The notes below the pieces were generated by a model. The model had not been told where the DNA came from. It ran no database searches and saw only the letters and a list, made by a program, of their open reading frames with translations. From a virus, in IMG/VR virus record IMGVR_UViG_3300025789_000038, positions 1 through 62,743 of that record: a DNA stretch of 62,743 nucleotides. One strand, given 5' to 3'. Positions 7,515-34,723 of this stretch are shown here, piece by piece (the stretch's first letter is position 1; each line of letters begins with the position of its first letter). Both the position numbers and the translations under genes were made by a program.

Positions 7515-9599
7515 TTAAAAAATTACGTCTTTAATATTCTCTACTCCATCGTTATCCCAATTTTTTATTGGGGGTTGTTCGTGAGTGAATAATGGTTGTT
7601 GTTGCTGTTCTTCTTTCATACTATGCCACCTTTCTATTGGGTCTATTGGGTTTCTTCCTGTACCTTCTTCAAGTTTTTCAATAAAGGCACACTCCCCCTT
7701 GTATCTTTCAAATTTAACAGGGTGGTCTATTGATGTGGGGCGACCACCCGTTTCCGTTTCTTTTATCTTCCTAACGTGAACTTCTGTTACCATCCATTCG
7801 GTTGGGTGTTGTGTTATACGGTGGATAGTTAAAAAATCATCTGCCTTATTAGCAACCTTTTGTCCGCCTTCGGTATCTGCTTTATTTGGGGCAAGTGGAT
7901 ATTTTTTTTCGCCATCCTTTGCCCTTGCAGCAGCCGTTACTGCGTGGTGGTTAATATACCAACCATAGTCTGTTTGTTGCCCATAAGCCTTCATTTCACT
8001 TAAAGCCTCATAATGATATTCGTGGGTATTTAATTTACTAAAACCGCTTAAATCAATTTTTAAACTATTGTATGGGTCAATCATAGTATAGGTTAAATCG
8101 GGGTATTTAATTCTAGCTTTTTTAGTCATATTGATAATGTCCTTGTAATTATACAAGTCCTCTTGAGCCTTTATTAACTTAAAATGTTCTTGAACAAAAT
8201 TGTACGCTATATCATATTCCTTGTCATTCATTGCGTATTTTCCGTGAAGTGGCTTACCCCAATAAAATTGCATTAAAGCCCTCATACAAGACCCTAGTGT
8301 GTTTTCACTAGCAAAAATTACCCCTTTCCACCCGTGATACATTGCTGCAATTAAAAGAAGCCACCAAATGAACTTAGTTTTACCAACGTTATCTACTCCG
8401 TTATTCATCACAAAAGAAGCCCTTTTGAATAAAAAATGTTCATCTAAAGAAGGGCATCCCGTAGTCAAACCTTGTGGTAAAGTGCCATCCCTAACTTGTT
8501 TTAAATAAGGGTCATAATCTGCCCCCGTAGCTAAAAAAGAGAAATCATTATCTTCTAAATCTACCCTAGATGATATTTTTCTAGTGCTTTGTGGCTTTTC
8601 TGCGGGTTTCTTTTCTTCTTTTCTTTCTCCGTACCCCATATCCAAAAGTCTTTTTGCTGCTTCTGAAAAATTATCCTTACATTCTAGCTTTGCAAATACA
8701 GCATAAGGCAGGTATGCGGTCTGTGGATTAAACTCTGTGCTAGTAGTAAAAACAGTAAACCACCTTCTAGTATAATCATAATTACCGCTAGTTAAAGCGG
8801 TTGTTTGTCCGGGTCTTAAAAAATGTACCTTCTGTCCTTTTTGACTAACTATCTTCCACCCGTAATTCTGTAATAAACCAACAACATCACCTCTTTCATT
8901 GTAATCATCAAATGGGCTTAACCCTTCTGTTTTCTTTTGGTATCCCTTACGTTCTATTGCAACTTCTTCTAAAACCTCATTAAACATTCTAGCGATGCCA
9001 AATAGACTATCTCTTTCTTCGGGAGTTATCTCTGAAATACTCATCAAGTCCCCAAAAATCATTTCATACCCTTCTGTCGGGGAAATTACAATCTGCCCCC
9101 CTATACCTCTTGTTTCAATTAAAACCCTAACCTTGTCGTTTTCAGAACTACGCTTTGCCACATTGGTTGCTTCATCGTGTGTTTTACCCTTAGCACATTC
9201 TGCTGTATAAGTTTCACTGTATGTCTTTCCCCTTTCTTCTTCTGTCGTTGGTCTATTGGCGAGTTTTAAATTACCTTCATTCTTAGAACAACGAAATATC
9301 AAATGGTATCCCCCATTTTTTGTTTTCTGTACAACAAGTTTTTTAAGCAATCCATTGTCATAATTTTGAACCAAATTCTTGTATCTAGTAAATAAATCAC
9401 CGCTAATGTCATATTTCAAATCGAAGTCAAGGGCTTCCACGCCCCCCGAAGGTTCACCACAAACAAGACCTACACCGTAACAGTTTGAAATATTATGTTT
9501 AGCCTTTACCGTTTGCCAATTTTTTACTATTGGGCGTTTTTTATCGTCAACAGGAATAAATTGTAACCCCTCTATTTCATTCATCGAAGAAAAATCCAT
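7515..9599 (-). CDS. Primase-polymerase/replicative helicase fusion
   Basis: A 694-residue replication protein. Residues 1-215 resemble a bifunctional primase-polymerase (PrimPol/AEP) domain, with the active-site DxD in VEALDFD (D58, D60), a later GGYHLIF strand and RGIGGQIVISP. Residues 370-650 form a RecA-fold helicase of the DnaB/RepA kind. Its Walker A is the variant GVDNVGKT near 400, Walker B is MIDPYN near 505, and a sensor-like INHHAV follows. The C-terminus is Q/E-rich. It probably primes and unwinds at the phage fork; no replicative polymerase of family A or B was seen, so host polymerase is probably used. Confidence 0.85.
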   Translation of the reverse strand: MDFSSMNEIEGLQFIPVDDKKRPIVKNWQTVKAKHNISNCYGVGLVCGEPSGGVEALDFDLKYDISGDLFTRYKNLVQNYDNGLLKKLVVQKTKNGGYHLIFRCSKNEGNLKLANRPTTEEERGKTYSETYTAECAKGKTHDEATNVAKRSSENDKVRVLIETRGIGGQIVISPTEGYEMIFGDLMSISEITPEERDSLFGIARMFNEVLEEVAIERKGYQKKTEGLSPFDDYNERGDVVGLLQNYGWKIVSQKGQKVHFLRPGQTTALTSGNYDYTRRWFTVFTTSTEFNPQTAYLPYAVFAKLECKDNFSEAAKRLLDMGYGERKEEKKPAEKPQSTRKISSRVDLEDNDFSFLATGADYDPYLKQVRDGTLPQGLTTGCPSLDEHFLFKRASFVMNNGVDNVGKTKFIWWLLLIAAMYHGWKGVIFASENTLGSCMRALMQFYWGKPLHGKYAMNDKEYDIAYNFVQEHFKLIKAQEDLYNYKDIINMTKKARIKYPDLTYTMIDPYNSLKIDLSGFSKLNTHEYHYEALSEMKAYGQQTDYGWYINHHAVTAAARAKDGEKKYPLAPNKADTEGGQKVANKADDFLTIHRITQHPTEWMVTEVHVRKIKETETGGRPTSIDHPVKFERYKGECAFIEKLEEGTGRNPIDPIERWHSMKEEQQQQPLFTHEQPPIKNWDNDGVENIKDVIF

Positions 9600-12804: not shown

Positions 12805-13455
12805 ATGACAGAACAAACATCACTAGATACACTTGCAATAAAATATGAAACAGATAAGTCTAGTTTACACCATGACTATTGTAGTATTTATGAAAAACTT
12901 TTCTCTAATTTAAGACAAAACAATTTTGTTTTTATTGAATGTGGGATTGGGGGGTATGAGTACATTGATAGAGGTGGACAAAGCGCAAAAATGTGGCGTG
13001 AATATTTCCCATTAGCAGATATTATAACTTTTGATATTAATGAAAAGAATATACCAAATTTTGAAGGGATAACAGTATTTAAAGGGTCTCAAATAGACCG
13101 TGAATTTATAGTAGATATGTTTACTAAAGTAGGCAATCCAAATGTATTTTTAGATGATGGTAGTCACGTTAATTCACACGTTATAGAAACATTTGAAATA
13201 GTATTCCCATTATTAAAACCACAAGGTATATATGTAGTAGAGGATTTTGAGACAAGTTTTTACGAAAGAGACGGTTTTGGTGGTACATTAGACATTTCTG
13301 ATTATACTGCTAACACTAGCTTAAACTATTTTAGAAAGTTAGTAGACGAAGTGAACTATAAATATATAGAAGGATTTACTCCAAATGAAATTTTTAAAGA
13401 CCAAATAGAATCAATATCTTTTTACCGTAATTTAATTGTAATAACTAAAAAATAA
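12805..13455 (+). CDS. Sugar O-methyltransferase (macrocin/TylE-type)
   Basis: A 216-residue class I SAM-dependent methyltransferase that resembles macrocin-type O-methyltransferases acting on deoxysugars. Signatures in order: DTLAIKYETDKSS at the N-terminus, the SAM-binding ECGIGGYEY (near 46), YFPLADIITFDIN, the metal-site LDDGSH (near 117) and YVVEDFETSFYE (near 146). It heads a three-gene cassette with two glycosyltransferase genes, 5 bases before the fucosyltransferase, so it probably caps a sugar made or transferred by them. Substrate unknown. Confidence 0.8.
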   Translation: MTEQTSLDTLAIKYETDKSSLHHDYCSIYEKLFSNLRQNNFVFIECGIGGYEYIDRGGQSAKMWREYFPLADIITFDINEKNIPNFEGITVFKGSQIDREFIVDMFTKVGNPNVFLDDGSHVNSHVIETFEIVFPLLKPQGIYVVEDFETSFYERDGFGGTLDISDYTANTSLNYFRKLVDEVNYKYIEGFTPNEIFKDQIESISFYRNLIVITKK

Positions 13456-13460
13456 AAAAC

Positions 13461-15038
13461 ATGATAGTAGGGACACACGTTGGTAAAGTTGGTGGGGGCA
13501 GATTAGGGAACTCTTTATGGCAATGGAGTTTCTTAGAAAGTTTAAGATTGAAGCATGGTATTGAATATGCCATACCCACTTGGCATTATTCAAAGTTTTT
13601 TATGTCCCCGCCGCCGCAAATAGATAACACTCCTCTATTAGTCAAGCAAATAGAAGAACCTCACTTTCATTATACTCCCGAATATTGGGAAAGTTTAATA
13701 GATGATTTTAAAACACAAACAGTCGGTCTTAGAGGATGGTTTCAATCAAGTAAATATTTAGAAGAACATTCATCGCAAATAAAAGAACGGCTATCATTTA
13801 CTCACGAATTTCAAAATAGCCTAAAAGAAAAGTTTAAACACATATTTACAAAGCCCACAATAGCAATAAGTATAAGGCGTGGGGATTATGTTGGGAATAG
13901 TAATTATCATTTATTAAGCATCGAATATTATATTGGTGCATTGTACTATAATTTCTCAAACTTTAAAGATTACAATATTGTTATTTTTTCGGATGATTTA
14001 GCCTATTGTAGAACCCATTTTGAGTGTTTAGATAATTCTTTTTTTGCAGAAGGGTTAAGCGATATAGAACAACTTTGCTTAGGTACTATGATGGATAATT
14101 TCATAGTTTCAAATTCAACATTTGCCTTTTGGATGGCTTATTTAGGCAAAAAGTCTTACTCAAAAATAGTTCGCCCTAACTATCACTTTGCAGGAAAATT
14201 ATTAGAAGAAAGTGATTGGAGTACATACTATCCTAATGATTGGATTATTTACGACCACAATGATGTGGAACTTAATAGGATAGACCTTCACGATGTTACT
14301 TTTTGCATCCCTGTATTTTACGACCACCCCGATAGAAATTCAAACCTATTGCTGAATATATGTATGCTACAAAGGTTATTTAATGCAGATATATTAGTAG
14401 GGGAAATGGGCGGTGAACAATGGAAAGATATACAGGGGATTAATTATGTCAATTTCCCTGAAATAAAAAACTTCCACCGTACAAAGATGCTGAATGAAAT
14501 GTTCTATTCGGTACAAACGAATATTATTTTTAATTGGGATGCAGATGTTGTCGTACCACCTTTACAAGTATTAAAGTGCATAGAAGAACTAAGAAGCAAA
14601 CGTGCTGATATGTGCTATCCTTACGATGGTCGTTTTGCTAGAGTTCCTAGAAATAGATTTTCGACAATAGAAAGTTTTTTAGATATTGGCATTTTAGGTG
14701 GGGAAGTTTTCAAAGGGATGAGACAAGGAGACGGAATGAGTGTAGGTGGTGCAATGGCTTGGCGAAAAGATGTATTTATAGAAGGTGGTGGGGAAAATGA
14801 AAATATGATTTCCTATGCACCAGAGGATACGGAAAGAAGGGAAAGGTTTGAAAGGCTTGGGTATAAAGTAGGTAGAGTTAAAGGTGTTCTTTATCATTTA
14901 GACCATTTCATAAGTATTGATAGTTCTGAAAAAAATCCATTTTTTAATGATAATTGGAACGAACTATATAAAATAAGGAATATGAGCAACAAAGAATTAA
15001 AAGAATATGTAAAATCTTGGGTATGGATGAAAAAATAA
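13461..15038 (+). CDS. Two-domain glycosyltransferase: GT11 fucosyltransferase plus GT-A domain
   Basis: A 525-residue fusion. Residues 1-265 form a GT11 alpha-1,2-fucosyltransferase: GGRLGNSLWQWSFL at the N-terminus, the GDP-fucose motif SIRRGDYVGNS (near 137) and SNSTFAFWMAYLG (near 217). Residues 275-525 form a GT-A fold transferase with NWDADVVVPP (DxD, near 358) and GGAMAWRKDVF plus YAPEDTERRERFERLG, typical of galactosyltransferase-like C-terminal regions (GT7C/GT2). The fusion would add two sugars in succession. Targets could be a virion protein, host surface glycan or phage DNA; none can be decided here. Its stop overlaps the next start (TAATG). Confidence 0.85.
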   Translation: MIVGTHVGKVGGGRLGNSLWQWSFLESLRLKHGIEYAIPTWHYSKFFMSPPPQIDNTPLLVKQIEEPHFHYTPEYWESLIDDFKTQTVGLRGWFQSSKYLEEHSSQIKERLSFTHEFQNSLKEKFKHIFTKPTIAISIRRGDYVGNSNYHLLSIEYYIGALYYNFSNFKDYNIVIFSDDLAYCRTHFECLDNSFFAEGLSDIEQLCLGTMMDNFIVSNSTFAFWMAYLGKKSYSKIVRPNYHFAGKLLEESDWSTYYPNDWIIYDHNDVELNRIDLHDVTFCIPVFYDHPDRNSNLLLNICMLQRLFNADILVGEMGGEQWKDIQGINYVNFPEIKNFHRTKMLNEMFYSVQTNIIFNWDADVVVPPLQVLKCIEELRSKRADMCYPYDGRFARVPRNRFSTIESFLDIGILGGEVFKGMRQGDGMSVGGAMAWRKDVFIEGGGENENMISYAPEDTERRERFERLGYKVGRVKGVLYHLDHFISIDSSEKNPFFNDNWNELYKIRNMSNKELKEYVKSWVWMKK

Positions 15039-15637
15039 TGTTGAATATAGTACACTTAGCAAAAGAACAATTCCAAATAGATAGCCCCCAATACAAAGAA
15101 TCAGTAAGGCGTGAAAAGTCTTTTATTTGGGAAATGGCAGAACAGGGGATTGCCTACAAAGTTTGGGATGCTAAGTATATACCAGATGTAATTGGGCTTG
15201 GATGTTGTTTAAGCCATAAAGCAATAGTAAGGGATGCAAAAGAGAAAGGTTTAAAGCAAGTGGCAATAGCAGAAGATGATATAGTGTTTTCATCAAAGGG
15301 GGCTTGGTCGTACTTTTTAGAGAAAATGCCAACCGACTTCGATTTTTATATGGGGGTTTCTTATTCAACATTAACTTACCCCACCAACGTAGTTCAACAC
15401 GCATTTTATAGTACTACCCTTTATATTATCAAAGAATCACTTTATGATATATTACTTGCAGCCCCCGAAGGTGAACTTAAAAACATAGATGTCTACTTAA
15501 ATGAATTTATAGATACACATAAGTTTAGGATATGCCAACCTTATGTATGTAAACAACTAGAGGGATATTCTTTCAATTATAGTCAAGATAGGCTATTAGA
15601 CCACTTTCTTGCAGGGAAAATATTATATGGGACTTAG
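15038..15637 (+). CDS. Family 25 glycosyltransferase
   Basis: A 199-residue LPS-type GT25 enzyme. It has the family's N-terminal LNIVHLAKE, SVRREKSF, GCCLSHKAIVRDAKEKG and AIAEDDIVFS (EDD metal site near 77-79), then DFDFYMGVSY. It is at the short end for the family. The start at 15038 overlaps the previous stop by one base and is preferred over upstream in-frame codons inside the fucosyltransferase gene. GT25 members usually add galactose to lipooligosaccharide. With its two neighbours it forms a glycan-modification cassette. Confidence 0.82.
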   Translation: MLNIVHLAKEQFQIDSPQYKESVRREKSFIWEMAEQGIAYKVWDAKYIPDVIGLGCCLSHKAIVRDAKEKGLKQVAIAEDDIVFSSKGAWSYFLEKMPTDFDFYMGVSYSTLTYPTNVVQHAFYSTTLYIIKESLYDILLAAPEGELKNIDVYLNEFIDTHKFRICQPYVCKQLEGYSFNYSQDRLLDHFLAGKILYGT

Positions 15638-15877: not shown

Positions 15878-16702
15878 TTGGCTAAACACGACACTATAAG
15901 GCTACCAATTTTAAACGCAATCACTTATGATTTTATCTATAACCTAAAAAAAGAGGTTAAGGATAACTTACCAATTAAGTATAGGCGTATGGTACAATCA
16001 GAAGTTAAGACTAAAAACTTTTGTGACCGTGCTAGTATGGATGAAAGGATGTCTTTTTTAGCTATGATAGGGGTAAGGTTCAGCATTTCTTTTTTCCCTT
16101 CTGAATTGTATAACGGTGTTCAGATACACGACTTTATAAAAAGTTACAACAAGGGGGAAATACACGAAGCTAAGAAAAAACAAATATCCCTTAATGTATA
16201 TGCAACAACAGATAAAGAAATAATCCACCTTTACAATATAATGGGTAACGCAAGTAATCAAGAAAGCGTTTTAAGGCAGTTGGACTTTAATAAAGTTGGG
16301 AATGTCACTAAAGAATGGAGTAAAAGGTTAGATAGCCCCGAACAGTTAGAATTACTTGATTCAATAGAGAATGCAGACTTAGTGGCAGAAACAATAACAA
16401 ATGCTAGTATTGGCACAATGTTTATAAAGGACGTTGTTGGGTTAAGGCAGATAGATTTACAATTGCTTTTAAAATTATATGTCAATAGGACAAAGTTTTT
16501 TACTAAAGAAGGTATTTACGGGTTGCTTTATGGGGTTTGGCAAAAACAAAAAATATCCAACTCTATAAGGTACTTAATGAATAATGGATACCTAAATGAA
16601 TATGCTTATGCAACCGTTCCTAAATTTACAATAAACGGGAAAGGGATAGCAAAAGTTCAAGAATTTATAAATTACGTTATCAAATCAAAAAATTTTAGTT
16701 AA
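15878..16702 (+). CDS. Hypothetical protein with possible C-terminal winged helix
   Basis: A 274-residue basic protein. The last 90 residues (RQIDLQLLLKLYVNRT, TKEGIYGLLYGVWQKQKIS, SIRYLMNNGYLNEYAY) follow a winged-helix pattern like MarR-type domains. The N-terminal part is unrecognised. The start appears to be TTG at 15878, 30 bases after a -7 box; no ATG is found before residue 38. The end overlaps the GroES start (TAATGAG), so it leads the chaperonin operon and may regulate it. Confidence 0.65.
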   Translation: MAKHDTIRLPILNAITYDFIYNLKKEVKDNLPIKYRRMVQSEVKTKNFCDRASMDERMSFLAMIGVRFSISFFPSELYNGVQIHDFIKSYNKGEIHEAKKKQISLNVYATTDKEIIHLYNIMGNASNQESVLRQLDFNKVGNVTKEWSKRLDSPEQLELLDSIENADLVAETITNASIGTMFIKDVVGLRQIDLQLLLKLYVNRTKFFTKEGIYGLLYGVWQKQKISNSIRYLMNNGYLNEYAYATVPKFTINGKGIAKVQEFINYVIKSKNFS

Positions 16703-17001
16703 TGAGTTTACCAAAAATGTTACATGACAGGGTATTAATAAAGCCCGATGAAGTAGAAAGCAGTAACGATGATATGATTGGGTTAGAAAAGAAAAAAGCC
16801 AATACGGGGGAAGTAGTTTCAGTGGGGGATGGCATCTATGCTTTTTCGGGAGATGATGGCAGACCTTTTGTACTTAAAATAGATATGACTTTAAAAGTCG
16901 GTGATAGAGTAAAGTATAATGAAAGGGTAGTAAGTAATTTCTCTATTGATGGAGTTGATTACGTAGATTGTTTTGAGAGAGATGTAATTTGTGTATTATG
17001 A
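16702..17001 (+). CDS. groES: Co-chaperonin GroES
   Basis: A 99-residue GroES (Cpn10). It has the N-terminal LHDRVLIKPDEVE strand, a mobile-loop region (residues 19-34), then NTGEVVSVGDG, LKVGDRVKYNE and a closing VDYVDCFERDVICVL. The mobile loop lacks the usual I-V-L tripeptide and reads DMIGLEKKK, so binding to host GroEL may be altered in favour of the phage GroEL encoded at 17352. It probably forms the heptameric lid for the phage chaperonin that folds virion proteins such as the capsid protein. Confidence 0.9.
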   Translation: MSLPKMLHDRVLIKPDEVESSNDDMIGLEKKKANTGEVVSVGDGIYAFSGDDGRPFVLKIDMTLKVGDRVKYNERVVSNFSIDGVDYVDCFERDVICVL

Positions 17002-17321
17002 TAACAGAACAACAAGATATTTTAATTTCAAAATTTTTATCAGATAAGATTAATGGTAATTCTGACGGAAGTTATTCTTTTTTAGTTGATAATTTTTCAG
17101 ACTGCTTTATTATAGATTTATCAGGTATAAAGAAAAGCAAAGAAGGTGATTTTTATGCTACTTTAACAGTTATTGACAAAGATAATAACCCAATATTTAC
17201 GTCAAGACTAGATTGGTCTAAAAATTATGAAAGACCAGAACAAAAAAGAAACGACCACCTTGCCTATATTGCGCTTTATTATAGGTTTGATTTTGATAGG
17301 GATTTTAAGGAGTTTCGTTAA
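16998..17321 (+). CDS. Hypothetical protein within chaperonin operon
   Basis: A 107-residue acidic protein, start overlapping the GroES stop (ATGA). The N-terminal helix (QQDILISKFLSDKI) is followed by beta strands (SYSFLVDNFSDCFIIDLSG, ATLTVIDKDNNPIF) and an aromatic end. No family recognised. Its position between GroES and GroEL suggests a role with the chaperonin or simply co-expression. Confidence 0.65.
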   Translation: MITEQQDILISKFLSDKINGNSDGSYSFLVDNFSDCFIIDLSGIKKSKEGDFYATLTVIDKDNNPIFTSRLDWSKNYERPEQKRNDHLAYIALYYRFDFDRDFKEFR

Positions 17322-17351
17322 TTATTTAAAAATTATTTAATAGGCAATGTT

Positions 17352-19028
17352 ATGAAAACAAAAGAGATTTTATTTGGGGAAGATGCAACAAACGCAATCC
17401 TAACAGGGGTAAACAAAATTTGTGATGCAGTAAAGGTAAGTTTAGGTGTAAAAGGTAACACCGTTGCAATGGGAACTAATAGTTACCACGACCTAACAAA
17501 AGATGGCTATACTATTTCAAAGTATGTAAACCTTAGTGACCCAAGAGAGGCGTGGGCAGCAAATGTTATTAAAGAAGTAGCCCGTAATACGGTTGATGAA
17601 GCAGGTGACAATACCACTACTGCAATGGTTTTGGCACAAGCTATTATAAACGAAGGGTTTAGGCTTATCAAAAATGGTTCAAACCCCGTATCTATAACCA
17701 AAGGTATAAACAAAGCAGTAGATGCCGTAGTAGCAAGGATTAAAGACATTGCACTACCAATAAAGCCCAATAGCGAACAACTACTACAAATAGCTACTAT
17801 TTCAGCAAATAATGACTTAGAAATAGGCAAGCACGTTGCAAAGTTGATTAGTCAAACAGGGGCTAACGGTGCAGCAAGAATAGATGAAAGCCAAAACGGG
17901 GAAACATACATTAAGTTAGTAGAGGGGCTTGAATTAAATACGGGTTGGACTAACAAATTATATATCACAAACCAAGATACTTTTTCGGTTCAATATGAAA
18001 CCCCATTGATACTTCTTTCTACTGAAAAGATAAGTACTTTGGAAGAAGCCAAAAAGATACTTAGTGTAAGGTTGGATATTGCCAATAAGACACAAACAAA
18101 TCCCCCTATCATATTGATTACACCAATGATAGAAGATGAACCATTAATGTTCTTCTTGGCTAATCGTACCCAAAGGGGGTTGCCTATTTGTATTATTAAA
18201 GCAGATGGATATGGCGAAACACAAAAAGACATCCTTGAAGATTTACAAGCAGTACTTGGGGGTAAGTTGATTAGCGATGTAAATAGCATAAGGGCTATTG
18301 ATACTAAAGTAGATTACTTTGGTACTTGCGATAAAATACTTGTTACTTCAACCAACACAACTATACTCGGTGGCGGTGGGGATAAGAAAGCAGTTGCAGA
18401 CAGAATCGAATTTGTAAGGAAAGACTTGGCTAATTCAACAAACGACTTTGATAAAAAAGCCAAAGAACAAAGACTTGCAAGGCTTGAAGGTAAGGTTGGT
18501 GTTATCTATGTAGGGGCAACGTCCGAAAGCGAACTTAAAGAAAAGAAAGACCGTGTTGATGATTCTATACGTTCTTCACAAGCAGCACTATTGGAAGGCA
18601 TAGTAGCAGGGGGGGGTGTTACGGGTATTAGGTGTATTTCTACATTAGAAAAAATCCCCTACGACAACAAAGATGAAAAATTAGGCATATCAATCATTGC
18701 AAAAGCATTGGAAGCACCGTACCTTCAAATGAGGGCAAATGCAGGGTTTGAAGATAAAAAAGGGTTGTCTAAGTTATTCCAAACAAATGATTCATTGGTT
18801 AAGAATGCCGACATATCTGCTATCAAGAAACTACCATTAAACGGTGGTTATAATTTTAAGACAGATAAGTATGAGGATTTAGTACAAGGTGGGGTTATTG
18901 ATGCTGCAAAAGCCTTTAGGTGTGCATTACAAAATGCAGCTAGTGTAGCTAGTACTTTACTTACTTGTAAGTGTGTAGTAGTACAAGAGGATGAGCAATT
19001 AATTTATAGTAATCAATTAGGAAGATAA
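17352..19028 (+). CDS. groEL: Chaperonin GroEL
   Basis: A full-length 558-residue group I chaperonin, ATP-driven folding cage. Landmarks: ILFGEDATNAILTGVN, SLGVKGNTV (usually TLGPKGRNV), TKDGYTIS, AGDNTTTAMVLAQAI (usually GDGTTT) near 85, VGATSESELKEKKDRVDDS holding the catalytic aspartate, and EGIVAGGGV near 418. The three nucleotide-site aspartates are kept, while the proline, arginine and glycine of two nucleotide loops are substituted. There is no C-terminal GGM tail. Phage GroEL is uncommon and occurs mainly in large phages; here it is paired with GroES in one operon. Confidence 0.95.
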   Translation: MKTKEILFGEDATNAILTGVNKICDAVKVSLGVKGNTVAMGTNSYHDLTKDGYTISKYVNLSDPREAWAANVIKEVARNTVDEAGDNTTTAMVLAQAIINEGFRLIKNGSNPVSITKGINKAVDAVVARIKDIALPIKPNSEQLLQIATISANNDLEIGKHVAKLISQTGANGAARIDESQNGETYIKLVEGLELNTGWTNKLYITNQDTFSVQYETPLILLSTEKISTLEEAKKILSVRLDIANKTQTNPPIILITPMIEDEPLMFFLANRTQRGLPICIIKADGYGETQKDILEDLQAVLGGKLISDVNSIRAIDTKVDYFGTCDKILVTSTNTTILGGGGDKKAVADRIEFVRKDLANSTNDFDKKAKEQRLARLEGKVGVIYVGATSESELKEKKDRVDDSIRSSQAALLEGIVAGGGVTGIRCISTLEKIPYDNKDEKLGISIIAKALEAPYLQMRANAGFEDKKGLSKLFQTNDSLVKNADISAIKKLPLNGGYNFKTDKYEDLVQGGVIDAAKAFRCALQNAASVASTLLTCKCVVVQEDEQLIYSNQLGR

Positions 19029-24412: not shown

Positions 24413-27400
24413 ATGGCAACATCAATAAGACAAGATACTAACCCATTAGAAGAATGGGCTGAAAGAAAAAAAGAATCGGTAGCGGAAACGAAACCTATTA
24501 AAAAGTCTATTGTTAAAAGTCAAGATAAATCACAGCCAACAGTTAGTGAAGAAAACCCACTTGAAGATTATTTTAAAAAAAAAGATGGTACTACAAACTA
24601 TACAAGTGGGTCAGAAGTTTCAAATTTACAAAGCAATCAACCCCCTACGGATGGTCAATCACAATTACCTACGAGCGAACCTAAGCTAAGTTTTGACCAA
24701 AACAAACAAAAGTCAATAAAGACAGTTGAAGAAAACTTAGGCGGTATTTCTGAATATTTTAAAAAACAAGGGTCTTACGATAAAGACTTTCAGCCTTTTT
24801 TACAAGGGATAAAATCAGGCAACCCCGAAACATTAAAAAAGGCTTGTGATATTATAAATACAGAACTTTCAAATAAAATAGATGAATTAAGTAAACCACA
24901 AGAAAGTTATGCAGGTTTAGCTAGTATGGGTGGTGGATTAGCAGGATTAGGTACTCCCGAAGTTAGGAATGAAATATCATCAGAATCAAAATCACAAATA
25001 GAAAAACTAAAGAAGGCTAAAATAGAAAACTATAACAGCCTACTTAGATATGCAGCAGGTAATCCAAAAGATGCAACAGGGAAATACTTGTCACCCAAAA
25101 ATATAGGCGATAGGCTTAATGCAGCAGGATTTGGCGTTTCTAAAGACCAACTTGAATTAGAAGCAAAAGCAGATAAATCAAAGACAAATTGGGCAACAAT
25201 AGCAAAACAGCATACCGATTTTAGAAAAGAAACTTTAGGGTATCAGACAATATTGGATGATTTACAAAGCCGTTATGATGATGCTAAAAAGATATATGAA
25301 GATAATCAAACAGAAGAAAATCTAAAAAAGGTTAATGGGATAGCAGATGAATTAAATAATACAAAATCTAACTATAATAATTTAGATTTAAAATACCCCG
25401 AAGTTGCAAAGAAAAATTTAGCTTCGTTGATTTCAGATAATGTTTCTACCAATAGAAGTAGGGCTGATTTTAATTTCTTTAAACCTTCAATAGAAGAAAT
25501 TAAACAAGGATTTGAGGATATTCGTAAAGAATCCCCCGAAACGGCAGCTAAATACCAACAAGTATTTAATAGTATTATACAAGACAAGCAATTTGTAGAT
25601 GTGATGGGCGGTTCTACTCCTAGTAGTTATGGGCAACCAATAGTACAAGGGGGATTGGGCGGTGCTTTTTCAAGGGGATTGGATGATGTTGTTAATTTAT
25701 GGGGAGTTGGTGACATTTTAACAATGAAACCAGAAGATATAGCGGCAGAAAAATTGGCTACATCTTATTCCCCACAAAAGACCTCTTATCAAAAAGGTTC
25801 TGACGAAGGTAGGATAGTGGTAGACAAAGAAGGTAATACATTAGTTAAGAAGCAAAATAATCTATCTAATACTTGGGACAATATTGTTAATCTAGTAGGT
25901 GAACAAGCCCCTACACTTATTGCATTTGGGGGTATAGAAAGTGCTGCAAGTAAGACAATAGGCAAAGGGGTTGTAGGTACACTAAAAGGTGCAACGGGAT
26001 TAGCAGGTGAATTTGTAGAGGGGGCAGCAGGAATAGAAGGTGGTACTGCAAGGGAAACGACAAGAAATGCCTTTAAATTTGCGAAGGGTGGAATTGCCGA
26101 AGGTTTACAACACGCAATAGGGACACAAGCGGGTATTTTTGCTACTTCTTATGGTAAAAATTATGATGAAAGTATAGATAAATTCCCCGACACCCCCGAA
26201 GGGCATAATCAAGCACACGCAGCAGCAGCATTAAAAACATTCGCAGAGGGGACAGCATTTTCTTTAATGGGGATAAGTCCTTCTAAATTAATTGGGGGGA
26301 CTATTGAAAAAAGTATAAATGCAGATATTGATAAGTTTATAACAGAGAATGATTTTAGCAAGATAGGTAAAGAAGAATTTGCGGCAAAATTCGCAGATAT
26401 GTATGCCCCTAAGATAGAAAAGCTAGTTTCTTCTACTGTTAAAGAATCTCTTAAAATGGGCGGTATCGGCAATGTCAATGAGTATATAAAAGGCAAGATA
26501 GACCAATATTTGACAGGTAAACAACCCGAAGAAAGCACTAATGATGAAGAATTTAAGAAGCAAGTAGACATTTTTAAAAGTGGGGCTTTGATGGGGGCTG
26601 TATTTTCAGCGTTGCCTAATATGTTAAACTTTGCAACAAATGGCAAAGAATACGCACCTAGCCACACGGAAACACTAATGCACCTTTCCCAAAACCCCGA
26701 AGAAAGCAAATGGAGAGCGCAGCAGCTTTTTGAAAATGGCACAATAACAGATGCTAGGAGAAATGAATTTATTAAAACAATAAATACATCTGTAAATTCA
26801 TTAAACGATGCTATTGAATTTGCAAGGGGAGAAGGGAAAGACTTTAACGACTTAAAGACCCAATCCCAACAAAAACTATTGGCTAATCAATTTAGACAAA
26901 GGTACTTTAAGGATATGGCTGATAATAACCCTGACTTAAAAGAAAAGGCTATTGAAGAACAAGAAAGATTAAGAAAAGAAGCGTTAGGACTTTTGGAAGA
27001 TAAAGAAGCAATGCCTATTAGTGATGCCTTTGTTAAGGGATTAGATATTAAGATGGTTGTGCCTAAAACAGACGAAAGTAATGGGGGTGAAGTTAAATTA
27101 GGCAGCATAAACGAAATAGGGCAAAACACAGACAAAACTTTTATTATTGATGGTAAAGAAGTAAATGCAGAAGAAGCCCACCAACACATTTTAGATAAAG
27201 CAACAGAATTAGTTGATGCCCCACGCATAACAGAAACAGAACAAGAAATATTAAAAGGATACGAAAAAAGGATTAAAGAGGGGGAAACTTTGCCTGCCAA
27301 GTCCCAAAAAGAATACGAATCCCTTTCTAAGAAAAAAGAACTTTACGACAAACAACAATCATTCATTAATCAAACAGAAGATGAGAAAAGCAAAAGTGCC

Positions 27401-30400
27401 GAACCCCAAACAACCGAAACTACACAAGCCAAAAGTGAAGATACCGAAGGTACGCAAACCGAAGATTTAAAGTTCCCCAAAAGGAATGATGATTTTGCTT
27501 TCAAGTACTTTAGTGACGAAGAAAAAAATAAATATGCACAACTAGAAAAAGATGGAGATACCGAAGGTATTTCTAAAATGATTGAAGATAAAAAAGCAGA
27601 GTTAATAAGACAATCAGAACATAAGGTTACACCTACGATAGTAGTTGATGGAAAAGAATATTACGGTGCTAATCACGGGGAAGCAATGGAAGCTGCTATT
27701 GCAGACGGGAAAGATATACCTAGTCCAGATACAGAAGAAGGAGAAGCGTGGAGAACTGAACACGGACAATTTAAAACAGCAGACGGGGATTTATTAACTA
27801 GAGAGCAAGCTGAAAATGACCCTAATTATGGGTTTAATCAATCAAAGGATATTCCTCCCATTCAATTATTAGTCCCTACATTAGAACCTGTTACTAAAAC
27901 AGAACAATCCCCTATTGACAACGAACCTTTAAAAGAAGGTGATATATTGGCAGATGGTCGTGAAGTATTAGGCGTAAATGAAGAAAAAGGGCTAATCACA
28001 TTAAGAAAAGATATTGGTGAAGGTAATTTTGAAACACAAACTATCCCACTTAAAGAAGCTACCGATATTGGTAGAAAAACAAAAACAACAACAGATGAAA
28101 GCATCAGCAAAGAAAGAGGTAAAGAAGGTCGCCAAAAAGGCGGTAGAAAAGAAGGTCGCCAAGAAAGCGATAAAAAAGGCAATGTAATTGGTGGGGACGG
28201 TACATCATCTAGTGAAGGTGGTGTACCTCCTACTAATCCTCCTACAAGTAAAGAAAATACCCCCGAAGAAAATAGACAAGTTTGGATAGGGATACAAAAA
28301 GCTATGTTAGGGGACACCGTATTAAAAGTAATGGGAACTTTAGATAGTGTTACAAATAAAGAAACCATACAAAAGGCTATTGATATGCTTTCTGATATGG
28401 CTTCTAATGGCAGTAAGACTATTATTGATGCAGCAAAAGATTATACTGACAAATGGCATGATATATTATTCAAAAAGACATCTAAAGGCGACCCAATATT
28501 AGATAGTCAAGGCAGACCCGAAATTAATAGAGGTGTTGGTATTCCCACTGAATTATTAGGGGCTATGGGTGTTAGACAGGCTTATTTGGCAGATATGCTT
28601 AATAATACTACCGACCTAGAAGAACAAGGTAAAATTGCAGTAGAGATGCAAAGGGTTGACGAAGTTTTAAGGGTAGCACAAAATGAGTTGGGACGTAACT
28701 TTCAGTTTTTACAATCACTATTCAAGTTGGGTAGCGATGGTGAAATATTGTATAGGAGAAATGTTTTATCCAAAGCTATTGACGAAGAAATCCCCGATAA
28801 TAAAGAAGCATTAGATAAGCGTATCGGCGAATTAAAAGAAGGGGATAAGGAAGATATAGAAAAGGCTAAAATGCTAAAAGAAGCCTATGATGAATTAGAA
28901 AAATTAAAGAACAAAACAAAGGCAGCCGAAGAATCTACTCAAAAAGAAGTTGATAGGATTACAAAAGAAGATTTTGACAAGGCTATTGCCGAAGCAGAAA
29001 AAAGAGGTCGTGAACAAGCCGCAGCCGAAAAGAAAAAAGGCAAAACCCCTCAATCTGAAATATTAAAGAAAACAGGGAAAGATTGGGCAAACAAAATTCG
29101 TTCATTAAAGATAGATAATAATAATACTTTAAGTGCAGATATAACATTAGGATTAGGCAGACCAACTTGGAATCTATTAGTAGAATCTGTTGCAAAATTA
29201 GTAGAAGCAGGTAGTGAAATAGGTGCAGCTATATCTAAGGTTTTAGAAGATAAAGAATTTTCTTCATTGAAGAAAGAAGATGTAGAAAAGTCATTAATAG
29301 GGGGTGTTGATGCTAAAACTAAAGAACAAATTGATGCTAACAGGCGAAATGCAAAAGAGTATAAGGCACTTGAAACAGAACGTAACAGGCAAATAAGGGT
29401 TTATAATGACTTAAAAGAAAAGTTAGCTAAATTAGTAGATACAGGCAAAAAAGAGGTAAAAGAGAAAGGTGAAACAAAAAAAGACACGCCCGAAATAGAA
29501 GATTTAAAAAGTAGGATAGAGCAAGTAAAAAAAGATATTTCCGAAAGAGATGCGCACGAAAAGAAAATGCAAGGGCTACAAGATGAATTAACCCGTTTGC
29601 AAAACAGAACCCCAAAAGAGAAAAAAGAAGCAGGAGATAAAGTAGTTAGTGCAGAAGAACAAAAGCTAAAGGATGCTATTGATTTAGAAAGGAAACAATG
29701 GGCTTTAGAAAAGTCGGCTGAAAATAGGATTAAAAATGCCGAAACTGAATTAAAAAGGGTACAGGATAGGATTGAAAACCCAAAAACAGAACCTTCTGAA
29801 AAGAAATATCTTACTGAAAGGGAAGCTGAATTGGCTAAAGAAATTGAAAAAGAAAAGAAAGATTGGGCGCACGAAAAGAAAATGCAAGGGCTACAAGATG
29901 AATTGACCCGTTTGCAAAATAGAACCCCAAAAGAAAAAAAAGAAGCAGGAGATAAAGTAGTTAGTGCAGAAGAACAAAAGCTAAAGGATGCTATTGATTT
30001 AGAAAGGAAACAATGGGCTTTAGAAAAGTCGGCTGAAAATAGGATTAAAAATGCCGAAACTGAATTAAAAAGGGTACAGGATAGGATTGAAAACCCAAAA
30101 ACAGAACCTTCTGAAAATAAATATCTTACTGAAAGGGAAGCTGAATTGGCTAAAGAAATTGAAAAAGAAAAGAAAGATTGGGCGCACGAAAAGAAAATGC
30201 AAGAGCTTGAAAGTAAGTTGGATGATATTAAAAACAGGCGTGAAAAAGCAGAAACCCAAAAAGAAAAGCAAGTTATTAGTGCAGAGGAACAAGCTAAACG
30301 TGATGAAATAGATGAGGCTCAAAAAGAATGGGATAAAGAAAAAAGGGTAGAACGTTTACAAGAAAAACTAGAAAAGGTAAAGCAGCGTATTGTTGAAGAA

Positions 30401-33400
30401 AAATCCCCTACTGAAAAGAAGAAACTTAGTGAAGAAGAAAAGTCTTTATTGCAACAGATAAAAGACGAAAATGCAATTTGGGCAACAGAAAACAAATATG
30501 ATACACATCAAAAATTAGAAGACATATCAAGTGTAGCCAAAGAACAAGGGGTTACTACATTATCCCCTAAAATAGTTGAAGATGGATTAGTTCAAAATCT
30601 TATGGATTCTTATTTAGGGAAAGGCTTAAATAGTTCAGAAATTTTAGAAAGTGCTTTGTCTGACTTAAAAAAAGTATTACCAGATGTAAGCGAAAGACAG
30701 CTATTAGATGCTTTTCTTCGTAAAGGGGATTTTGAACAAAAAACAAAAGAACAAGCTAACAAAGAATTAAAGCAACAAAAAGATGATTTAAGGCAGACCG
30801 CTAATTTGCAATTAGAGAATGATATGATTGCAAAAGGGGAGGAAATATTGAAGGACAAGAGTAAAAAAGATGAAATTAGCGGTTCTGTTGTAAAGATGCT
30901 AAAAGATAAAAAAGCAATGCTTTTACAACAAAAGAGAAATGCAGAAGTTGACCAACAAGTATCAGATATAAACAACCATTTAAAGACTTGGGAAAAGATA
31001 TTAAAAAGCGTTCAATACGAAGGGAACGTATTAGCCAAAATGAAAGCAGATAATAGAGCTAAGATTGACGAAGCCCTTATTAAGAATGGGATTAAGTTAG
31101 ATAGAAGTAGCCAAGATGTTATTCAAAAGAATAGAACTATTGCTAATACTCATAACAATAAGGTTGATGAATTATTGTCTAATCCTAACTTGACAAACGA
31201 GCAAATCAGACTATTAAAAGGGCTTAAAATAAAAGACGTAAATAATGTAGAGGAGTTAGGTGAAAAAATAGACAAGGCAGCTAGAAGTATTCAAACACAA
31301 ATAAATTTAGCTAACCCAACAGACCCGATTTCAAAAGAATTAAAGTCTTTGAAAAATGATTTATTGGAAGGTTTAAGTAAGAGGGACGAGTTTACTAAAC
31401 TTGAAGCAGCAAAACAAAAAATGAGAGGGGATATTAATAGAATGACTAGAGATATTGCAGGCAATAGATTTGCTGATTCAAAAAGTCCTACACAATTAAA
31501 AATAGATAGAGAGTATATTAAGCTACAACACGAAAGAAATATGCTTCGTGCAGAATATGACAAAGCAGAAGAAAAGTTCATATATCAAAATAAGAATAAC
31601 ATAGGGAAAGGGTTGGATTTATTTTTAAGGGCAAGGCGTGGTAATTTGATTTCTTCATTAAGTTCTACTGTATTCAAATTGCCGTTAAGTTCTTTTGTTA
31701 AAATAGGGGGGGATATTCTTTCTACTAATATATCAGGATTGTCTCCTTTAACGGGGGGGATTAGTTATTTAACAGGATTAGAAAAGGCAGTAAGCGCACA
31801 AAAAATATCTTGGAAAGCAGACTATGAAGGGTTGAAAACAACAGCAGGGTTAAGCCTATCAAATGTAAGAGTTGACGAAGCTATTTTGAAAGAAACAAAA
31901 GAGCAAATGGCTAATACTAAAAAGATATTAACAGACCAAAAGCAAGTTTTATTAGATAGAAACAAGGAATTAAAAAAATCTGATGACGAGAAAAGTATTG
32001 ATGAGATTTCAGATAATGAATCTAAAATAAAAGAGTTAGATAGACAGATAGAAAAAAACTCAAACAAGGTTCGTGATATGAAAGTGGAAACACTTTTAAA
32101 AAGTACGGACGAATTATTAAAGTCAACAGCAGATAATTTTTTTAAAGTAAAGGCTGAATTAGAAAAAAATGGAGTTGACTTAAATAAAAGTAAAGAATAT
32201 AAGGTAGCTAAAAAGGCTTTTGATGATGCGGAATACAATAGTGGGCTAGCTTTTATGTATCAATTTATTGGTCACGTTTGGAAGAATAGGGGTGAACAAA
32301 TAATGGAAGGGGCGTACTCTTTTGAAGAGGCTATGGGCGACTTTAAAAGAATGTCTTATGAAGATAGAATGGCTATACATTCTACTAAGTTTGGCAAAGG
32401 AGTAGAAACATTAATATACGGGGTTGATACAATAGGAAGGATACACGCAGCTACTAAAGATATTTCAGCAATGAAGCAGTTTGTTACTGAATACGCAAAA
32501 GCATTAGAAAGGGCAAGTAGGAAAATGGATGCAGGTCAACGTTTGCAAGAGAGTGACAAGTATATCATTATGCAAAAGGCTTTTGAACACGGGTTCAAGG
32601 GGGGTAAGTTTTCAGAAAAAAACGCTACTGTTAGATTTGTTCAAGATGCTTTTAAAAATATAGATAGGTCAATAGAAGAAAAAATGTTGAAGCGTGGTGG
32701 TACTAAAGACTTAAATTACAAGGCTTCAAGATTTGGTAGTGGGGTTGCACAATCTATATTGTTACCCGTTCTTAAAATACCTGCTAATATTGAAAATTCA
32801 GGGTTGTTTAAATATACATTAGGATACGGATTAGCTTTAAAAAGGATAGGTTCAGAAGCGATACGTGCTTCAAAAAATATGGACTATTCGGCACAACAAA
32901 GCATTACCGAAAATATAAAAAGGTTTGGTGAAGCATTTACTAAGCACATGAGTGAATTAGACCCTGACTATGCAGATAAAATAAAAGAAGGATTAAATAA
33001 GGGGCAAGTTGGCTTAGTTACTATGGGGATTGCTGCACACATGATAGCAACGGGGGCTTTAGCTTTTGGAGGCGTTTATTATCCGGGGGCAAGAAAGAAA
33101 AAAGATGCTTATGGTAATGAATTGAATTTTGGTGCTATATCATTAAATGGTAAAGTTTTCGACAACTATACTACTGCTATTTTAGGTCACTTAGATATAA
33201 TGATGCCTTTCTTTATGGCAGCAAATTACATGACTGCAAAAGAAAATCAAGAAAGAATAAATCTTAATGAAGAAAACAGGGGGTTAGAGAAATACACTAA
33301 GAACCCCGAAGCGGTTGGGCTTGCAAATGACATTTTCATGGCAATAGAAGAAAGCCCCGTAAGAAATGTATTATCTTTGGCAGGCACACCCGAAAATGTA

Positions 33401-33565
33401 TATCAAGGTAGTAGTGGAGTAATGGAAAGTTTCTTTTCAGTTGGGATTGCAAAAAGTATAGGAAAAGGTATAGATGACTACAACGGCGACCAAAGAGATA
33501 TTCAAGATTGGAAAGATAGGCTTATGGTAAATAATGGATTAAATTTCTTAGTAAATAAAAAATAA
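24413..33565 (+). CDS. Giant internal virion / large polyvalent-type protein
   Basis: A 3050-residue protein, the largest gene here. Residues 1-110 are disordered and hold two copies of an NPLExxxxKK motif. Residues 500-620 carry hydrophobic, glycine-rich segments. Residues 870-1290 are acidic, ending in a K/G/R-rich stretch. Residues 1600-2060 form a long coiled coil with a 105-residue tandem duplication. Residues 2405-2480 (ARRGNLISSLSSTVFKL) resemble domains found in phage large polyvalent proteins. Near residue 2867 there is a membrane-like helix (GLVTMGIAAHMIATGALAFG). I saw no DxDGD motif, which argues against a virion RNA polymerase. It is probably packaged in the head and ejected with DNA. 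Confidence 0.65.
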   Translation: MATSIRQDTNPLEEWAERKKESVAETKPIKKSIVKSQDKSQPTVSEENPLEDYFKKKDGTTNYTSGSEVSNLQSNQPPTDGQSQLPTSEPKLSFDQNKQKSIKTVEENLGGISEYFKKQGSYDKDFQPFLQGIKSGNPETLKKACDIINTELSNKIDELSKPQESYAGLASMGGGLAGLGTPEVRNEISSESKSQIEKLKKAKIENYNSLLRYAAGNPKDATGKYLSPKNIGDRLNAAGFGVSKDQLELEAKADKSKTNWATIAKQHTDFRKETLGYQTILDDLQSRYDDAKKIYEDNQTEENLKKVNGIADELNNTKSNYNNLDLKYPEVAKKNLASLISDNVSTNRSRADFNFFKPSIEEIKQGFEDIRKESPETAAKYQQVFNSIIQDKQFVDVMGGSTPSSYGQPIVQGGLGGAFSRGLDDVVNLWGVGDILTMKPEDIAAEKLATSYSPQKTSYQKGSDEGRIVVDKEGNTLVKKQNNLSNTWDNIVNLVGEQAPTLIAFGGIESAASKTIGKGVVGTLKGATGLAGEFVEGAAGIEGGTARETTRNAFKFAKGGIAEGLQHAIGTQAGIFATSYGKNYDESIDKFPDTPEGHNQAHAAAALKTFAEGTAFSLMGISPSKLIGGTIEKSINADIDKFITENDFSKIGKEEFAAKFADMYAPKIEKLVSSTVKESLKMGGIGNVNEYIKGKIDQYLTGKQPEESTNDEEFKKQVDIFKSGALMGAVFSALPNMLNFATNGKEYAPSHTETLMHLSQNPEESKWRAQQLFENGTITDARRNEFIKTINTSVNSLNDAIEFARGEGKDFNDLKTQSQQKLLANQFRQRYFKDMADNNPDLKEKAIEEQERLRKEALGLLEDKEAMPISDAFVKGLDIKMVVPKTDESNGGEVKLGSINEIGQNTDKTFIIDGKEVNAEEAHQHILDKATELVDAPRITETEQEILKGYEKRIKEGETLPAKSQKEYESLSKKKELYDKQQSFINQTEDEKSKSAEPQTTETTQAKSEDTEGTQTEDLKFPKRNDDFAFKYFSDEEKNKYAQLEKDGDTEGISKMIEDKKAELIRQSEHKVTPTIVVDGKEYYGANHGEAMEAAIADGKDIPSPDTEEGEAWRTEHGQFKTADGDLLTREQAENDPNYGFNQSKDIPPIQLLVPTLEPVTKTEQSPIDNEPLKEGDILADGREVLGVNEEKGLITLRKDIGEGNFETQTIPLKEATDIGRKTKTTTDESISKERGKEGRQKGGRKEGRQESDKKGNVIGGDGTSSSEGGVPPTNPPTSKENTPEENRQVWIGIQKAMLGDTVLKVMGTLDSVTNKETIQKAIDMLSDMASNGSKTIIDAAKDYTDKWHDILFKKTSKGDPILDSQGRPEINRGVGIPTELLGAMGVRQAYLADMLNNTTDLEEQGKIAVEMQRVDEVLRVAQNELGRNFQFLQSLFKLGSDGEILYRRNVLSKAIDEEIPDNKEALDKRIGELKEGDKEDIEKAKMLKEAYDELEKLKNKTKAAEESTQKEVDRITKEDFDKAIAEAEKRGREQAAAEKKKGKTPQSEILKKTGKDWANKIRSLKIDNNNTLSADITLGLGRPTWNLLVESVAKLVEAGSEIGAAISKVLEDKEFSSLKKEDVEKSLIGGVDAKTKEQIDANRRNAKEYKALETERNRQIRVYNDLKEKLAKLVDTGKKEVKEKGETKKDTPEIEDLKSRIEQVKKDISERDAHEKKMQGLQDELTRLQNRTPKEKKEAGDKVVSAEEQKLKDAIDLERKQWALEKSAENRIKNAETELKRVQDRIENPKTEPSEKKYLTEREAELAKEIEKEKKDWAHEKKMQGLQDELTRLQNRTPKEKKEAGDKVVSAEEQKLKDAIDLERKQWALEKSAENRIKNAETELKRVQDRIENPKTEPSENKYLTEREAELAKEIEKEKKDWAHEKKMQELESKLDDIKNRREKAETQKEKQVISAEEQAKRDEIDEAQKEWDKEKRVERLQEKLEKVKQRIVEEKSPTEKKKLSEEEKSLLQQIKDENAIWATENKYDTHQKLEDISSVAKEQGVTTLSPKIVEDGLVQNLMDSYLGKGLNSSEILESALSDLKKVLPDVSERQLLDAFLRKGDFEQKTKEQANKELKQQKDDLRQTANLQLENDMIAKGEEILKDKSKKDEISGSVVKMLKDKKAMLLQQKRNAEVDQQVSDINNHLKTWEKILKSVQYEGNVLAKMKADNRAKIDEALIKNGIKLDRSSQDVIQKNRTIANTHNNKVDELLSNPNLTNEQIRLLKGLKIKDVNNVEELGEKIDKAARSIQTQINLANPTDPISKELKSLKNDLLEGLSKRDEFTKLEAAKQKMRGDINRMTRDIAGNRFADSKSPTQLKIDREYIKLQHERNMLRAEYDKAEEKFIYQNKNNIGKGLDLFLRARRGNLISSLSSTVFKLPLSSFVKIGGDILSTNISGLSPLTGGISYLTGLEKAVSAQKISWKADYEGLKTTAGLSLSNVRVDEAILKETKEQMANTKKILTDQKQVLLDRNKELKKSDDEKSIDEISDNESKIKELDRQIEKNSNKVRDMKVETLLKSTDELLKSTADNFFKVKAELEKNGVDLNKSKEYKVAKKAFDDAEYNSGLAFMYQFIGHVWKNRGEQIMEGAYSFEEAMGDFKRMSYEDRMAIHSTKFGKGVETLIYGVDTIGRIHAATKDISAMKQFVTEYAKALERASRKMDAGQRLQESDKYIIMQKAFEHGFKGGKFSEKNATVRFVQDAFKNIDRSIEEKMLKRGGTKDLNYKASRFGSGVAQSILLPVLKIPANIENSGLFKYTLGYGLALKRIGSEAIRASKNMDYSAQQSITENIKRFGEAFTKHMSELDPDYADKIKEGLNKGQVGLVTMGIAAHMIATGALAFGGVYYPGARKKKDAYGNELNFGAISLNGKVFDNYTTAILGHLDIMMPFFMAANYMTAKENQERINLNEENRGLEKYTKNPEAVGLANDIFMAIEESPVRNVLSLAGTPENVYQGSSGVMESFFSVGIAKSIGKGIDDYNGDQRDIQDWKDRLMVNNGLNFLVNKK
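29552..30181 (+). repeat. Two tandem 315-base repeats inside the giant gene
   Basis: Copies 29552-29866 and 29867-30181 are nearly identical (a few silent and one K-to-N change). A third copy begins at 30182 but diverges after 22 bases. Each unit is 105 codons, so the frame is kept. Confidence 0.92.
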
Positions 33566-33571
33566 ACAATT

Positions 33572-33709
33572 ATGCCATTAAAGAAATCATCAAGTAAGAA
33601 AGCATTTTCTGAAAATGTAAGGAAGGAAGTTAAAGCAGGGAAACCCCAAAAGCAAGCAGTAGCAATAGCTTATAGTGTTCAAAGAAAAGCAAAAGGTAAA
33701 AAGAAATAA
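33572..33709 (+). CDS. Small DUF6496-like phage protein
   Basis: A 45-residue lysine-rich peptide (SKKAFSENVRKEVKAGKPQ, then KQAVAIAYSVQRKAKGKKK). The pattern KAFSxNVxxEVKAGKPQKQAVAIAYS is common in small phage proteins (DUF6496 as I recall). Function unknown; the strong positive charge suggests DNA or capsid binding. It sits between the giant virion gene and the gene at 33711. Confidence 0.72.
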   Translation: MPLKKSSSKKAFSENVRKEVKAGKPQKQAVAIAYSVQRKAKGKKK

Positions 33710-34054: not shown

Positions 34055-34723
34055 TACAAAATGAGCATAATAAAACAATGTACAGTTTGCAATAAAGACT
34101 ATGAAGTCAAACTAAAAGAACGATACGAATCTTCAAAGTATTGCTCTAGGACTTGCATGGGTAACGGACAAAAAGGTAGGCTTAATCCACATTCAGAAGA
34201 ATGGGAGGCGAAGAGAATTATTGCAATACAAGAGGCTTCAAAGAATAGGATTTATCCTAAAGGTTACAAAAGAGTTAAAGAACATTATGAGCCAATGCTA
34301 GAAGCGGTTAAGAAAGCAAGAGAAAAAGACCCTGATATATTTAGAGAAAGAAGTATAAAAAACTTACCAAAAGATGTATCTGGCGAAAAAAATGGCAATT
34401 TTAGAGATTGGGCTACAAAAAAAAGTAATAACTTTAGGGTTCAGAACAGCTCAAACTTTAAAAAGTGGAGAAATTTAGTAATGGAAAAGAGTGGGCATAA
34501 ATGTGTTTTATGTGGATGCGGTGGGAAGTTGGACGCACATCATATAATATCGTTGTCGGAATCGGTAACTCCTGCATTTGAAGTATGGAATGGAGTTGCC
34601 TTATGTAGAAGTTGTCATGTAAAAACAGATAGCTTTGGAAGTAAAGGAGTATTGAAAAGTATAAAAAAACAAAGCGAAAAAAAGGAAGGTTTGTTTATTT
34701 TAATCAAAGTAATACCACATGAA
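34049..34723 (+). mobile_element. Candidate HNH mobile insertion with target-like duplication
   Basis: The DNA ending ATACCACACGAA at 34048 resembles ATACCACATGAA at 34723. The 675 bases after the first copy, up to and including the second, hold an HNH endonuclease frame and are a multiple of three. This suggests a homing-type insertion that supplied a new 5' part for the interrupted gene. An intron is less likely because the insert is almost wholly coding. Confidence 0.55.

Follow-up and report, generated by a model that had tools for sequence, protein, structure and literature searches.

Does a phage that carries both a chaperonin and its co-chaperonin build a folding chamber with a lid of its own, or are the two proteins put to some other use alongside those of the host? 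The question is raised by a tailed-phage contig of 62,743 bases, the full length of its virus record and referred to here as the window, which has terminase and portal genes. The preliminary description of this DNA noted an intact GroES-GroEL pair, and open reading frame calls, Pfam, PHROGs, and predicted folds bear this out, with both genes on the same strand of a phage contig (Table 1).

Table 1. Features of the window and the basis of their assignment
Feature	Position	Strand	Evidence
Primase/polymerase-type protein	7515-9599		
groES (co-chaperonin, 99 aa)	16702..17001	+	Pfam Cpn10 1.3e-12; PDB GroES sequence match 4.7e-08
GroES mobile loop, ESSNDDMIGLEKKKANTG; I-G-L at 16777-16785	16756..16809	+	Alignment with cellular and viral GroES
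Exchanged block versus sibling contig L002: groES codons 57-99 and orf107	16870..17351	+	Against L002 4860-5000
orf107, orphan between groES and groEL (107 aa)	16998..17321	+	ATGA overlap with groES stop
groEL (group I chaperonin, 558 aa)	17352..19028	+	Pfam Cpn60_TCP1 3.1e-55; phrog_5725 1e-127
Nucleotide-binding loop 1, SLGVKGNTV (T30S, P33V, R36N, N37T)	17439..17465	+	Alignment
Nucleotide-binding loop 2, DNTTTA; catalytic D87 kept, G88N	17607..17624	+	Alignment
Lengthened apical helix H, model residues 230-247, lid/substrate-binding face; L234K, L237 kept	18039..18092	+	Alignment, model
Disordered insertion, residues 469-485, inter-ring face, adjoining E461-V464 positions	18756..18806	+	Alignment; pLDDT <50
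Terminase	36985-39321		phrog_6681 1.4e-25
Portal	44661-47141		phrog_6547 8.2e-17
Putative tail protein	59789-62047		PHROGs; sub-threshold F5/8 type C (sugar-binding) domain

By terminase score, Flavobacterium elemo phages come closest, then a Manatee Spring podovirus and Cellulophaga phages, at 20-25% identity; judging by these relatives, the host is probably a member of the Bacteroidota. The groES start coincides with the end of an upstream gene of 274 aa, and the gene that follows groEL begins right at the groEL stop. This tight packing, from the 274-aa gene through groEL's follower, gives groES, orf107, groEL, and the flanking genes what looks like the arrangement of one transcription unit. 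No relatives of the downstream 182-aa gene were found in the phage collection. Upstream of groES (12805-15637) lie genes for a methyltransferase (phrog_21658), a protein in which a GT11 (fucosyltransferase-like) and a second glycosyltransferase are fused, and a GT25-like glycosyltransferase. Elsewhere in the window, positions 24413-33565 encode a protein of 3,050 aa, a length that makes it far oversized for a GroEL chamber, the sole family signal of which is a sub-threshold thioredoxin-like stretch (residues 943-1097). An HNH endonuclease gene, possibly for a homing endonuclease, is found at 34061-35071, two genes 5′ of the one that precedes the terminase gene.

The gene reported between groES and groEL most likely starts at the ATG at 16998, overlapping the groES stop as ATGA. 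It has no match in Pfam, PHROGs, or the phage collection, and in IMG/VR it matches only a 100% identical contig. The sibling contig L002 is without it, groEL beginning there nine bases after groES. Between this phage and L002, identity is 98% over groES codons 1 to 56, which take in the entire mobile loop, and 96% over groEL, as opposed to 60% for groES codons 57 to 99, i.e., 51 mismatches in the 129 bases of the block against a background of ~4% (2e-35). As judged from the alignment, the locus is a recombination-like mosaic in which the second half of the lid has been swapped and orf107 is present or absent between phages otherwise ~96% identical there. An intervening gene is not peculiar to this phage: of 42 viral loci in which groES lies upstream of groEL, 5 have at least 250 bases between them, including Cellulophaga phage phi38:1. 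Homology of orf107 to the middle open reading frame of phi38:1 (gp006) was considered and rejected, the two having no similarity.

The Cpn60 domain spans the whole length of GroEL and scores 188.2 bits against a curated Pfam cutoff of 34.3. The AlphaFold2 model (pLDDT 89.4) matches PDB GroEL in Foldseek at 4.9e-50 with TM scores of 0.78 to 0.82, the best matches are all group I, and the predicted fold has three domains without a built-in lid. The Cpn10 domain of GroES scores 48 bits (cutoff, 21.1) and its AlphaFold2 model (pLDDT 86.3) matches GroES 4pkn_X in Foldseek at 1.3e-06, the mobile loop having the low pLDDT expected of such a loop.

In E. coli numbering, used throughout with Salmonella GroEL as the ruler, the catalytic aspartates D52, D87, and D398, noted at first reading as conserved, are indeed kept in the alignment, and K51, G53, T89-T91, and G414-G416 are also unchanged. 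The two departures read from the sequence are likewise correct by alignment: SLGVKGNTV stands in place of TLGPKGRNV, and GDNTTT in place of GDGTTT. The phage GroEL does not have the canonical phosphate loops, and we read this as sequence divergence because the catalytic residues are kept and elemo phage also departs. P33 and G88 are found in all 83 cellular GroELs compared, although counts in sets fetched with the scan motif AGD[GN]TTTA are biased at position 88. Since the motif contains position 88, both sites were recounted in Bacteroidota GroELs retrieved with the whole protein and no motif, and were again invariant (31/31). Of 17 phage-collection loci recovered by tblastn, two depart at P33 (A in phi38:1, Y in elemo) and one at G88 (S in elemo); across the cellular sets and these loci, both sites are altered elsewhere only in the Flavobacterium elemo phage. 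Lying in the phosphate-binding loops, P33V and G88N could slow ATP turnover. At the 164 positions that are at least 97% conserved within the cellular set, the GroEL studied here has 69 departures, which ranks it with elemo (71), the Manatee Spring phage (73), and the crAss-like phage cr108 (66); EL and PBS1 have 102 to 106, and the viral-set median is 16.

On the lid, the preliminary description needs correcting. It had the mobile loop lacking an I-V-L type motif, but I25-V26-L27 of E. coli corresponds to I26-G27-L28 in the phage GroES when the two are counted without gaps from their common LHDRV anchor. Both residues found to be essential in GroES mutants, I25 and L27, are kept, whereas at V26 even the V26D substitution is tolerated (PMC5575113). 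The loop has 18 residues between markers, three fewer than typical, compared to 19 to 22 in other complete loops. The HMMER alignment sets the gap before the hydrophobic residues, and the register is therefore not certain; under either alignment, M-I-G-L is the sole hydrophobic stretch of the loop. On the chamber side, L234, L237, and V264 are the GroEL residues seen in contact with the GroES loop in the crystal structure (PMC3514286). Positions 234/237/263/264 read K-L-L-A in the phage GroEL versus L-L-V-V, with K234 uncertainly aligned because helix H, which has gained ~6 residues, holds an insertion. The shorter GroES loop, the changed GroEL contacts, and the longer helix H lend indirect support to what may be an altered lid pairing.

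The stretch of GroEL that matches E. coli residues 445 to 480 has 52 residues, compared to 36 or 37 in nearly all cellular GroELs, and carries a 16-residue insertion at the ring-ring face that is predicted to be disordered (AlphaFold2 model). In the alignment of inter-ring positions, R452 is L, and P462, S463, and V464 are all replaced; alteration of R452 together with 461, 463, and 464 yields the single-ring E. coli GroEL, SR1. R197, a residue of an intra-ring salt bridge, is T, and altogether the changed intra-ring or inter-ring contact residues comprise R13T, R197T, K327S, and R452L.

Given that I25 and L27 of GroES and L237 of GroEL are kept and that the two genes are adjacent, on the same strand, and tightly packed, we think it likely that the phage makes a self-sufficient folding chamber closed by its own lid. 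That the chaperonin is active and lid-dependent seems quite likely to us, even though the slower ATP turnover that P33V and G88N could cause, and K in place of L234 and A in place of V264 at the lid contacts (where the alignment is uncertain), weaken this reading. After infection, phage GroEL rings would capture unfolded phage proteins on their hydrophobic apical face, bind ATP, and then be capped by the phage's heptameric GroES via the I-G-L loop, with release timed by D398-dependent hydrolysis. The pair would in this way allow phage proteins to fold independently of host GroE capacity. We infer ring assembly, ATPase activity, the use of this lid by this chamber, and phage proteins as clients. 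The initial proposal had gone further, to a chamber that excludes the host partner and is specialized for virion proteins. Rejection of the host lid as well is plausible but less likely than not. Virion proteins are plausible as preferred clients; the open reading frame at 49156, put forward as the capsid protein, found no confirmation as such by Pfam, PHROGs, or tblastn.

The evidence from the ring-ring face and the lid contacts could also be accommodated by split roles, phage GroES acting as a replacement lid for host GroEL, as T4 gp31 does, and phage GroEL working as a lid-free single ring or as a holdase. Lid-free phage chaperonins do exist (EL, OBP, and AR9; PMC7185714, PMC9598537), the inter-ring face carries both the insertion and the substitutions at R452 and P462/S463/V464, and the GroEL lid contacts have changed although the GroES loop retains its I and L. 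Because of these two altered surfaces we allow such a division of labor a small probability. It sits poorly with the fact that groES and groEL are neighbors here and in the sibling alike, and with the far greater divergence of EL and the other lid-free chaperonins (102 to 106 departures per 164 sites versus 69). Furthermore, 13 of the 17 phage loci with full neighborhoods either pair groEL with a lid gene or cleanly lack one, and pairing would usually imply joint use. We regard as similarly improbable a scheme in which P33V/G88N re-engineer the ATP cycle by altering how phosphate is handled and the disordered insertion blocks stable double rings, leaving single rings with a private lid that serve phage clients only.

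Less probable again is that phage and host chaperonin proteins can stand in for one another, so that the phage pair simply enlarges the host pool and mixed rings or mixed lid-chamber pairs form. E. coli GroEL is stated to accept co-chaperonins from any source (PMC3514286), and the retained I25 and L27 would fit such promiscuity; however, identity to Bacteroidota GroEL is only ~40%, and the R13T, R197T, K327S, and R452L changes speak against mixed rings.

GroEL is under strong purifying selection: of the changes that separate the gene from that of sibling L002, ~100 are synonymous and 25 nonsynonymous (dN/dS, 0.059). The odd residues are common to both, except one (S79R), and on these two grounds we regard them as maintained by selection and not as products of decay. 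The best cellular matches to GroEL are from Bacteroidota, at 39 to 42% identity (42% for the best of 396 Bacteroidota genomes), and among proteins of solved structure the nearest in sequence is an ancestral Fibrobacteres-Chlorobi-Bacteroidetes chaperonin obtained by reconstruction. In GroEL trees, both phages fall outside all sampled host clades on a branch of ~3 to 5 changes per site, the length of which makes the exact position unreliable. The trees were checked for a position inside a host GroEL clade and showed none, in keeping with the original view of a phage-owned GroEL with its own lid, divergent at the ATP loop, and acquisition from a host was rejected given these trees and the 42% ceiling. 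That the gene is a host copy in decay or carried neutrally, as the several altered near-invariant residues might suggest, is scarcely credible and already contradicted by the dN/dS value, by both frames being open in two phages, and by the distance of GroEL from all 396 Bacteroidota genomes. A Flavobacterium metagenome-assembled genome (G005) contains, besides its own GroEL, a second GroEL match of 30% identity on a different contig (C204:16-1272), which may be a phage sequence binned with the bacterium.

The rarity first ascribed to phage GroEL, and still more to GroEL with GroES, did not hold. A total of 255 phage-collection records match this GroEL, some of them mislabeled bacterial contigs, and GroES is present in the fetched flank of 46 of 98 GroEL loci in the viral set, which may hold some bacterial contamination. 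Three phage-collection GroEL records (L010, L022, and L025) resemble bacterial contigs by their metabolic neighbors or a Salmonella title; entries named “Acinetobacter phage MD-2021a,” “Enterococcus phage,” and “Listeria phage” and Salmonella contigs were either counted as cellular (these three records) or omitted. The GroES-GroEL pair is also found in Cellulophaga, Flavobacterium (elemo and immuto), and other phages. In the literature, 36 genomes of marine Bacteroidetes phages that are relatives of phi38:1 are reported to carry GroEL (PMC5332604), cpn10 is listed in the core gene set of the Pervagoviridae (PMC8776804), both GroEL and GroES are found in some phages (PMC7185714), and phi38:1 GroEL has been detected in the proteomes of infected cells (PMC13288928). 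With 255 records and published pairs, the kind is therefore already known, and the pair in the window is a divergent member of the known phage chaperonins, unusual at the ATP pocket, the ring-ring face, and the lid contact.

The interest of the locus lies in residues 33 and 88, near-invariant in cells and changed in two separate Bacteroidota podovirus lineages (V/N here, Y/S in elemo) with the catalytic aspartates retained. With purifying selection demonstrable here, this provides a natural test of the role of both residues in the ATP cycle, and also of whether phages build chambers which host lids cannot close.

Compared with known systems, the pair shares fold, catalytic residues, and operon order with Bacteroidota GroEL-GroES, from which it differs in the replacement of P33, G88, R197, R452, and L234, in the inter-ring insertion, and in the shorter lid loop. 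Like the jumbo-phage chaperonins of EL, OBP, and AR9, it is phage encoded with changed ring-ring contacts; however, EL aligns at 22% identity and retains P33 and G88, and no lid gene was found next to the chaperonin of EL or of the AR9-like PBS1. Membership in this lid-independent class would call for groEL without a neighboring co-chaperonin gene, whereas here groES precedes groEL. In Flavobacterium phage immuto, groES also lies directly before groEL, but its GroEL is far nearer to the bacterial proteins (18 departures from the 164 conserved sites versus 69). Cellulophaga phi38:1 (Pervagoviridae) has the same unidirectional order of Cpn10, small open reading frame, and GroEL, the latter with P33A, but its GroEL is 35% identical and its middle frame (90 aa) is unrelated to orf107. 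Elemo (Elemovirus) has, directly before its terminase, a further gene whose product (180 aa; 33133-33675 in record L006) carries the annotation co-chaperonin GroES, and no counterpart of it ahead of the terminase was detected in this contig. The elemo GroEL is ~31% identical and its gene order is reversed, its lid loop keeps G-L-Y-L at normal length, and its inter-ring segment is of normal length. Elemo is nonetheless like this phage in being a podovirus, the top terminase relative by score (24.8% identity), with neighboring GroEL and GroES genes and changes at the same two GroEL sites, P33Y and G88S.
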